A stretch of 64,000 bases of DNA from Dactylellina haptotyla (taxonomy: Eukaryota > Ascomycota > Orbiliomycetes > Orbiliales > Orbiliaceae), in contig CM062381.1 in the NCBI GenBank assembly GCA_031310005.1, forward strand, positions 2,604,001-2,668,000. The letters run 5' to 3'. The translations under genes were made by a program, and so were the position numbers. Positions 9,301 to 13,419 of the stretch are shown one piece after another. The notes under the pieces are model-generated. The model was not told the DNA's origin. It searched no databases and was given only the letters and a program-made list of their open reading frames with translations. Position 1 is the stretch's first letter; each line of letters opens with the position of its first letter.

Positions 9301-10723
9301 CTTTTGCATGAACAAACAAGTGTTTTCGACCTCTTCTTTCCGGCCAGGCAAACAGAATCCCACAACTTCCACAGCATTTCTGCCTAGGGCTTCGTCTTCC
9401 TCAGCAGCGCGGTTTTCTGTCAAAACAGCCTTCTCGAAAGGTCCAATCGCGAAAGCGATTTGATGAGGTGCAGTTGGCTTCTCAATTGTGAAGTGGAAGA
9501 CTTTTTTGCGGACATCCTTAGCATCCGTAAACTATAAACGTAGTTAGCACCTATTCGAATCATGGGTGCATGAAGCTAGCATCATCGGGTCATATCGGCT
9601 TACTTCATTCACACAACTGCCAGAGCAGACAACCTGCATCTCTAGATCGCTTCCTTCGCCATGGTACTGAAAGGCGAAATCGGAATCTTCTTTTTTCGGC
9701 CGTTTTCGCTTTAATATTGAATTTGTTCCGTTAATAAGGGGTTCCTCGTGAGGTTCAATGTCGGCGCCAATGTCTCCTAATGTTCGAGGGCAAGTAATTT
9801 CAATATCCCATATCGAAGGTCGTTCCCATAAATCGTCAATACATGGAAATAAACATGATGCTGAGCCAGGCAAGAAACTGTTTGTAGTGAAGGCGTGTGG
9901 GTATCTCAGATCATCGTCGGAGCCAACAAAATGAAGTCCATCTCGGATACTGGGGATCGTGAAATCTATCCGGACAAGCAGCGCAGCATATACCGGGCCA
10001 TCTGTCGCGTTAGGGCCGGGCGTGTCTATTCGAGGAGAGTCTGCAACTGCGTTAGCTTATAATTTGACCTGTCGGCGGAATAGTTCGTAAACACACCTCT
10101 AGCCGAACCGGCCCGCGTATCCCTAGTAGGAACCAGCGTATTTGCCATCGATGGATCCTTGTTCCGTCAGCGAATCTGAAATTTCAATATACGGTCCTTA
10201 GTCGTGGCATTACCTCCAATTCAATCTTCATCTTGGTTGGGAGCGAAAGATAGAGCTCATCGTCGCCGACAGCGCTCGAGAAGAGAGGCTCAATCCTCTG
10301 TCGCAACATCCCCCATTGGTTGACCGTCGCTGTATCGTGGAGCCTCCATTTAGAATAGGGATCATTGTGCTTGAAGGTTCCGGGTGCTCGTCCGTTGATC
10401 GTTGCACGGGTAATGTCTGCTCCGCATTACTTTAGCCCTCACGCTATATCTTTTATTAATGCCATAGGCAACGACACTTACTACACTGCCGACAGTTGAA
10501 TCTTAGTATCTTCAAAGTCGGGTCGAGCGGCACCACACTAATCTCGGTGTACCCCTAGAACTCTATCCGTTAATATTCTTAAATCATGCTTTCTCTCATC
10601 ATCCTCCATTTAAAGGAAGACCCACCTTGATACTCCTCGTAGAAAAGTCGACATCTAGACCAACTTTCTGCTTAGCTGTGCACCGAACGTCAGCTCTACC
10701 CTCCTGCGAATTAAACCCGCCAT
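6338..10723 (-). CDS. TAF2: TAF2, TFIID subunit with an inactive M1-aminopeptidase-like fold
   Basis: TAF2 contacts the Initiator element as part of TFIID. Evidence includes the N-terminal KVGLDVDFSTRSIKG and GYTEISVVPLDPTLK, LRFNCRQC, the M1-like region at about 9254-8900 (HYPYPSFSLAFVDDFPS, LWLTIGLAHFLAG) and a long HEAT-like C-terminal half. The site matching the zinc-binding HExxH of M1 peptidases reads VALASQWCG, so the metal ligands are gone, as expected for TAF2. The large exon is 6930-9254; several smaller exons lie at 9300-10723. The start is proposed as a 7-base exon (ATGGCGG, 10723-10717) joined across a 41-base intron, because the open frame before KVGLDVDF has no in-frame ATG. 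The tail (6691-6338) is proline-rich with repeated alternating hydrophobic/lysine motifs. Confidence 0.93.
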
Positions 10724-11676
10724 CGTTGAAATCAGGGCTACTTATATTGTGTATTGTTTGGGCGGAGGAGATGCCGAAACAGTGATCTCTGGGGCCGACA
10801 TTAAGGTGGATTATTGCGGCCCGTGCAATCTCCTCCCTTAGATCCGCGATGCTCCGCGGTGCATATCAGAATGCACGATCGACGGGCTTTGGTTGGTTGC
10901 TTGTTGGCGTTTCTCTCGGTGTAAGTTGATGAGTCCACAGGAAGTTCGCAGGTTGCACGTTGGAATTGTGCGCCTCGTGTCGATAATATTACCGCGATTG
11001 AAATTGCAAACTCGAGAACCTGGCAGGCCGGGGGTGGTTGGAGAGGGTATGGCGTGAAGGTCTACGTAATGGCCTCAGTTTGATGTTCGTGTCGCGTGAA
11101 GCGGTGATGACTCCTAATTGACCGGGGAGCGGTATAGATGGGGACTGGAGGTCGGAAAAGGCGAATTATAGAGTTGATACGGCTGTGAGATATGCGATTC
11201 GATGATATCTAACCTGAGCGGGGTGAATGCAAGCGTCGGAAAGCGAGAGGTTGAAGGTGGCTGTCGGATCGCGAGATGAGGTGTTTGGAATGGGGAATGG
11301 AGCAGAAGCGCGCTTAGCTTGTTTTGTTGTGCGCGCAAAACGCGGCTACTCGGACAAACTGCCCGCGCAGACGTCGGGACACAACCGCGCATCTTTGCTG
11401 GATCGAGCCGAATCACGAAGAGATCTAGAGGCAGAGGGACAATATATTTGCAGTACACAGGATGCAGTGAGAGCCTCGATGTCAAGAAGATGGGCGAGAA
11501 CGGGTATTCAGTTTATGCTTTTTGTATAATTCGTTGTATATACACCTCCCTCTCAAATATAAAGCACTTATTTTACAAAGAAATGGCAAAAGGTGATCAC
11601 AATCGCTCCTACTGGTTCGATTCCACGCAATTCCGGAGATATCCCCATCACCAAACTATATGTTATTTCTCTAAAT
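10724..11676. other. Intergenic region upstream of TAF2
   Basis: About 950 bases between TAF2 and the end of the complex I gene. Open frames on both strands around 11114-11580 show no recognisable protein and are probably chance. Likely the TAF2 promoter and the 3' region of the complex I gene. Confidence 0.55.
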
Positions 11677-13419
11677 TTAACGATCGACCTGTGCACAGAC
11701 TGTCAGCAAAGGGGAAACATTTCTTTCATCCCAGGCAAAAAGGGAACTTATCTCCAAACACAAGATCCATAGTACCGATGACGGCGACGGCGTCAGCGAG
11801 TAAATGGCCTCTGCAGACTTGGTCGAAACAGCCAAGGTGGGCAAAACCAGGCGCCCTAATCTTACATCGGTACGGTCTCTGCACACTAGTGTTAACATAC
11901 CACAACTACCAGCTGCTCGAGTTTAATGTAGAAAACGCACCTCAGAACCATCACTGACGACGTAGACGCCCATCTCTCCCTTGGGCGCCTCGATGGCAGT
12001 ATAGGTTTCGCCCGGAGGCACAGTGTATCCCTTGGTGTAGAGCAAGAAATGGTGGATAAGAGCCTCCATGTTTTCCTTCATAGCTGCTCTCGGCGGTGGG
12101 GTAACTTTGTAATCCTCAGTTCTGACCGGGCCGGCTGGCATCTTGTTCAAGCACTGGTGGATAATCCGCAACGATTGTCTGAATTCCTCCATCCGGCAAA
12201 GATACCTGTCGTAACAATCTCCGTTGATACCAACGGGGACATCAAACTCAACCTGATCATATGCGTCGTAGGGTTGGGACTTTCGAATATCCCAAGGAAT
12301 ACCGCTGCCTCTCAACATGACACCAGAGAAACTGTAGTTCAAGGCTTCCGCCGCACTCACGACGCCAATACCTTGCGTTCTCGCCTTCCAGATAGGACTG
12401 TCGGTAAGCAACTCCTCGACTTCATCAACTCGGTCGCCGAATTGAGTGGCCCATTGATAAATATCATCCAACAATCCAATTGGAATATCCTGGTGGACAC
12501 CGCCAGGGCGAACGTATGCAGCATGCATACGGGCACCAGAGACACGTTCGTAAAACTCCATCAACTTCTCTCTCTCCTCGAAACCCCACAAGAAAGGTGT
12601 AAGAGCACCGACGTCCATGGCGTGAGACAAGACCGACATCAAGTGATTCCGTACTCTGGTGATTTCACCAAAGAGGGTTCTGATCCATTTGGCTCGTTCC
12701 GGGACCTCGATATTGAGCAATTTCTCAACAGCAAGAGAGAAGCACTGTTCATTCGTCATCATGGAAACATAGTCGAGACGGTCAAAGTACGGTAGGGCTT
12801 GGAGGTAGGTTTTGTATTCGATCAGTTTTTCGGTGCCACGGTGCAACAGGCCGACGTGAGGGTCTGCTCGGACGATTTCCTCGCCGTTCAACTCAAGAAT
12901 CAACCGTAACACACCATGAGCAGCTGGATGCTGAGGTCCCTGTACGATAGACGATCCATTAGCATCTACGCAATTTCCCGTAGTTCAATGAAGAAGTTTA
13001 TGGATATATTGTTTCCGTACGAAATTGACAGTATAATGTCTTATCTTCCTGCCTTCATGCGAGGTTTCGCCCAAAGCCTGATCGGGAGCTGCACGCCGCA
13101 TCGATTAGCCGAGATCAAGGTCAATTGCCCCGTACACATGAAGTCTTAACGTACTCATCTGCGTCGTATCAAAGTTGAGAGGAATATTATCTGCATCCTT
13201 CTCCGGCTCGGGACCAGTGAAACGGGCAACGGGGGTCGACGCCTGCACAACGTCATCATATTGGTCCTTCTCCGGAACCGGGGAGGCATGTCGGGGCATT
13301 GTGGTCGCGAACGACCTTATCGACGGCCATTTCGCGACGGATTGGATGGGTCTGTAGTTCAAGCAGCGGGTCCGGGTGACGAGCCGCCTCGTGGCGAGGC
13401 GGGCGAGAGGGACAACCAT
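11677..13419 (-). CDS. nuo-49: NADH:ubiquinone oxidoreductase 49-kDa subunit (NDUFS2/Nuo49)
   Basis: Core complex I subunit lining the quinone-binding cavity in the mitochondrial inner membrane arm. Exons are 13419-13151, 13039-13021 (19 bases), 12939-11941, 11878-11752 and 11690-11677 (14 bases), totalling 1428 bases and 475 residues. The N-terminus is Arg-rich and acid-poor ([14 protein letters not shown]), a mitochondrial presequence. Then come [67 protein letters not shown] and [14 protein letters not shown]. The conserved ending GEVDR needs an AT-AC intron at 11751-11691; without it the protein would end DKFPFCLG. The exon 1/2 junction is less certain than the others. It diverges from AC40 across 449 bases. 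Confidence 0.95.
11691..11751 (-). other. nuo-49: Candidate AT-AC intron (61 bases) in the 49-kDa subunit gene
   Basis: Minus-strand reading: GGAG, then intron ATAAGTTCCC...TCTGTGCAC, then AGGTCGATCGTTAA. A CTGAC branch-site match sits about 15 bases before the 3' end. Joining gives Gly-Glu-Val-Asp-Arg-stop, the usual terminus of NDUFS2 proteins. The 5' site ATAAGT resembles U2-type rather than U12-type AT-AC introns. No GT or GC donor nearby restores this ending. Confidence 0.75.

Follow-up and report, generated by a model that had tools for sequence, protein, structure and literature searches.

A putative U2-type AT-AC intron ahead of the final exon in a fungal complex I 49-kDa subunit gene

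Known AT-AC introns and the 49-kDa subunit gene

A U2-type subclass of AT-AC introns, with an ATAAGT-like donor, an AC end and a U2-type branch site, was reportedly the subject of a 1997 paper by Wu and Krainer. The U2-type AT-AC type is also named in a passage of PMC7072748, in which AT-AC introns make up 0.019% of annotated fungal introns; the corresponding passages elsewhere give 0.03% of SnowyOwl gene-model introns (PMC4084796), 69 cases among 14305 junctions (0.5%) of Trichoderma longibrachiatum (PMC4324775) and, for human fungal pathogens studied by RNA-seq, 0.09-5.19% of sites (PMC6176087). The AT-AC class is known in fungi and, as quoted in these passages, its published frequencies disagree widely. 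The passages on class frequency in these fungal reports name no 49-kDa subunit gene, and none of the titles and abstract openings among the matches listed named an AT-AC intron for this gene in a fungus.

The putative intron described here (intron 4 of the gene below) shared with the divergent ('type II') U2-type AT-AC introns the ATAAGT-like donor, the AC end and the U2-type branch site, but differed in lying within a presumed fungal respiratory gene and in having an AG two bases past the AC. U12-type AT-AC introns have the same terminal dinucleotides as intron 4 but different donor and branch sequences. As a predicted intron, intron 4 would add a case to a known rare class.

The window (the whole stretch of DNA that was analysed, 64,000 nucleotides) carried on its minus strand, at 13419-11677, the gene for the 49-kDa (NDUFS2/NuoD) subunit of complex I. 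The splice model gave five exons and 490 codons, all on the minus strand: (i) exon 1 (13155..13419), which encoded the mitochondrial leader and had its start codon picked by eye; (ii) exon 2 (13021..13088), the product aligning to 7zm7_C from residue 22 on; (iii) exon 3 (11941..12939), the main conserved part, also covered by PDB matches and PF00346; (iv) exon 4 (11752..11878), which ended GTGTTTGGAG (VFG + G) and was likewise covered by PDB matches; and (v) exon 5 (11677..11690), 14 bases reading AG GTC GAT CGT TAA, placed by the junction scan as well as the splice model. Introns 1 to 3 were all GT-AG (66, 81 and 62 bases), and removal of intron 3 (11879..11940, minus strand) yielded a protein stretch the same as that of relatives. 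Against PDB, the product hit 54 distinct sequences, with 7zm7_C at the top (E 5e-252); residues 220-490 of the product aligned to positions 1-271 of the 271-position profile PF00346, i.e., complete to the last position. The gene was single-copy in the 39.8-Mb, 11-contig genome, both genome matches being exons of this same gene; no relatives of the product were found among viral contigs.

Residue 208 of the 49-kDa protein was R (ITRVRNHLM; codon 12651-12649, minus strand), at a position held by L in the five printed PDB sequences and in 75 of 79 bacterial orthologues from the best 80 of 583 relatives (A in 2 and I in 2). The R208 codon, one base from CTG, would represent either an odd substitution or a base error.

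Conserved C-terminus and the junctions that yield it

The end of the 49-kDa protein was compared across two sets of relatives. The best stretch reached the last residue in 50 of the 54 distinct PDB sequences; four of the five printed PDB alignments ended VFGEVDR, and the fifth chain was one residue short. The bacterial set comprised the best 80 of 583 relatives, all titled bacterial and with a full reading frame in 79, and it informs the protein end rather than introns: the endings were EIDR (51), EVDR (25), SIDR (2) and SVDR (1), with D489 and R490 identical in all 79. The PDB and bacterial conservation together indicate strong constraint on the last four residues, which exon 5 encodes in whole or in part, and agree with the original prediction that the C-terminal residues are strongly conserved. 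On the basis of this conservation, it is plausible that mis-splicing would harm complex I; a search for literature on mutants of the terminal arginine found nothing usable.

Intron 4 (11751-11691, minus strand, 61 bases) read ATAAGT...GCTGACAGTCTGTGCAC (longer form ATAAGTTCCC...TTTGCTGACAGTCTGTGCAC), with the donor ATAAGT and the acceptor GTGCAC. Its 3' end was preceded by GCTGAC, within which CTGAC (11702..11706, minus strand) was the branch-site candidate, its A lying some 12 bases before that end. Directly after the AC lay an AG (11689..11690, minus strand; CAC|AG|GTC), a competing canonical acceptor, and a GT lay four bases past the donor start; because of these two neighbours, other splice products are possible. 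Excision of the 61 bases would join GGAG of exon 4 to AGGTCGATCG and give a product ending VFGEVDR plus stop.

Junction scans were run at two widths. The narrow scan required exact FGEVDR and covered donors starting 63 bases ahead of the AT and sequence as far as 11560; just two placements survived, AT-AC and, with the 61 bases shifted, TA-CA. The widest scan took all donors from the exon 4 start while the frame was open, acceptors 25-999 bases away and sequence down to 10601, and accepted the looser ending VFG[EDS][VICL]DR; its sole hits were four placements, each again of those 61 bases: AT-AC and TA-CA (both VFGEVDR), AA-AG (VFGDVDR) and AG-GG (VFGDIDR). No GT-AG or GC-AG pair gave the conserved ending in any scan. 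The 300 bases that start at the donor were also put through 400 dinucleotide-preserving shuffles, with donors allowed at -15..+19 and acceptors at a distance of 45-199 bases; the ending arose from any dinucleotide pair in 10 shuffles, from GT/GC-AG in 0 and from AT-AC in 0. AT-AC was the only recognised class of ends yielding the conserved C-terminus. The original prediction had placed at 11691..11751 a 61-base AT-AC intron, ATAAGT...GTGCAC, with a CTGAC branch motif, and all these details were found; its statements that VFGEVDR is beyond the reach of a GT or GC donor and that excision gives exactly G-E-V-D-R-stop were reproduced by the widest scan and by the splice model and scans, respectively.

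Spliceosome class and competing readings

Intron 4 probably belongs to the U2-type AT-AC class and, within a nuclear gene of a fungus, is cut out by the major spliceosome. In a by-eye count over the nine positions of CAG|GTAAGT, intron 4 matched at 7, and introns 1 to 3 matched at 5, 4 and 6, respectively; the intron 4 donor fitted U1 better than the three other donors of the gene, despite the A at +1. Intron 4 also carried the U2-type 5' site (ATAAGT, by the class consensus) and, at the level of motif, the U2-type branch sequence CTRAY; in Trichoderma, the branch-to-end distance is described as peaking at 11-14 bases (a passage of PMC4324775). Three U1-like loci were found, with scores under Rfam's cut-off; all three began AUACUUACCU, so there was no altered U1 among them. 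The usual ACAGAG region was present in both U6 loci of the genome. Scans, shuffles, donor and U1-like loci together leave the predicted U2-type AT-AC intron before the last 49-kDa exon as the best supported reading of the sequence.

Some further features of the small RNA loci were recorded. Two of the U1-like loci (L155 and L156) were near-identical, and the other (L154) was divergent. The U6 locus L045:1470-1536 (contig C3) seemed to be interrupted by a 67-base intron of the mRNA type (GTAAGT...GCTAAC...CTTACAG) immediately ahead of CGATACAGAGAAG, and the sequence upstream of that intron, GACCTTCGGGTC...CAATTTGAAA, fitted the U6 5' part; U6 introns are known in other fungi. The second U6-like locus (L046, contig C1; 61.9 bits) had no such intron in its matched part. 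The 5.8S rRNA had no match in the 39.8-Mb assembly, though 9 of 14 control genomes matched, and rDNA may be missing from it.

In the proposed mechanism, the donor AG|ATAAGT, with consensus bases at intron +2 to +6, would be recognised by U1 and U6; the branch would form at the GCTGAC of intron 4; a C as the final intron base would make the A at +1 acceptable in the second step; and exon 4 would be joined to the 14-base exon 5, restoring the conserved end E-V-D-R. A partnership of the +1 and -1 intron bases has been described in published yeast and human work.

The main rival is a two-base assembly error, in which two G were lost and the true sequence, GGAGAGGTAAGT...CACAG|GTC, is an ordinary GT-AG intron; the assembly reads GGAGATAAGT at the donor, and the error reading predicts GAGGTAAGT in place of GATAAGT. 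Shifting both splice sites two bases downstream would indeed create a strong canonical donor and use an existing good acceptor (CACAG|G), and the odd residue R208 lies in the same gene; however, the long conserved genes of the window were uninterrupted (e.g., Vps8, 1067 aa, and TAF2, 774 aa), the remaining 1459 coding bases of the 49-kDa gene held no frameshift, and the lost bases would be a GG pair, with no long homopolymer, so that such an error is considered unlikely. A different protein end in this species, through retention of the segment in mRNA or through GT(+4)-AG splicing, has a small chance of being correct. The frame does stay open for a while, giving 494 aa on retention and 527 aa on GT(+4)-AG splicing, the latter adding a long tail; the retained frame stops after eight novel residues, as many short introns would do, and its translation agrees with the DKFPFCLG ending foreseen for the unspliced segment. 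The role of retention as a control point, raised in the original prediction, is speculative. Either product, however, would lose residues that are identical in the 79 bacterial orthologues (from the best 80 of 583) and present in the printed PDB relatives, whereas an exact E-V-D-R-stop lies 61 bases on, an ending that AT-AC or GT/GC-AG pairs produced in none of the 400 shuffles. Joining the AT donor to the AG two bases past the AC would also give the protein a different C-terminal end.

The two other readings are both highly improbable. Cutting the same 61 bases two bases later, as AA-AG, would use a real AG and give a conserved-looking product, VFGDVDR, with the spliced junction reading GGAGAGGTC in place of the AT-AC product's GGAGATGTC; but pairing with U1 makes the A of ATAAGT position +1, and none of the 79 bacterial orthologues (best 80 of 583) had D as the residue concerned, 76 of them having E and the other 3 S. 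To our knowledge, AA donors form no recognised class. Removal by the minor spliceosome as a U12-type intron would suit the AT-AC ends, and the U12 spliceosome is said in a passage of PMC7072748 to recognise most AT-AC combinations; but the donor is ATAAGT rather than ATATCC and the branch CTGAC rather than CCTTAAC (U12 consensus sequences as quoted in PMC3033335), neither U12 motif occurring in intron 4. U12 introns are moreover reported absent from Ascomycota in passages of PMC10639083 and PMC2846911, from which the U2-type class of the putative AT-AC intron would follow if the host is an ascomycete; its genome size, intron sizes and best hits suggest a filamentous ascomycete. U12 and U6atac had no match in the genome, a result that is no proof, as the control genomes gave none for either family too.

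Origin of intron 4 and search for a second example

A one-step origin of intron 4 is conceivable, if doubtful: GG would have been lost from the ordinary donor of a phase-0 intron GGAGAG|GTAAGT...CACAG|GTC, shifting both ends two bases upstream and turning GT-AG into AT-AC. Such a loss would be a single event that left the protein unchanged and passed through no AT-AG intermediate, and it would account for the AG right after the AC. An alternative that also fits has two substitutions in a phase-1 GT-AG intron, one replacing the initial G by A and the other the final G by C. U2-type AT-AG introns are poorly spliced. The same is said of U12-type AT-AG introns in a passage of PMC3584512. If the one-step origin were true, the old AG, which now opens exon 5, would be a built-in competitor; because it remains as such, the locus would be a natural test of first/last intron base pairing, made compact by the two-base distance between AC and AG, for matching by the major spliceosome. 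Were intron 4 real, the organism would depend on a rare donor kind to complete the conserved C-terminus of this complex I core subunit, and predictors restricted to GT-AG and GC-AG would mis-call the end of this core respiratory protein.

The genome was also searched for a second AT-AC intron. The pattern GATAAGT..CTRAC..CACAG occurred at four places, namely intron 4 and three others, none of which had a frame open for at least 20 codons on both junction sides. The pattern ATAAGT..GCTRAC..YAC occurred at 60 places (54 distinct donors) against 140 for the reversed control, i.e., it was not enriched. In a further step, 55 ATAAGT donors were read in all frames with the acceptor not required, and no second AT-AC intron was recognised among those that passed what is a weak filter (a frame open for 35 codons or more ahead of the junction and for 25 or more past it). 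This filter would miss intron 4 in its true frame, since exon 5 has only four codons; because it misses short last exons, the survey does not establish that intron 4 is unique, and because no second example was recognised, the class in this organism draws no support from one. Candidates set aside were L016, L028, L036 and L058, which ordinary GT-AG sites can splice (by eye), and L018 and L069, which were open without splicing. A further ATAAGT...GCTGAC...GTGCAC match lay in the window at 10678-10745 (minus strand), about 1 kb downstream of the 49-kDa gene, with no evident gene there, and it is probably a chance match.
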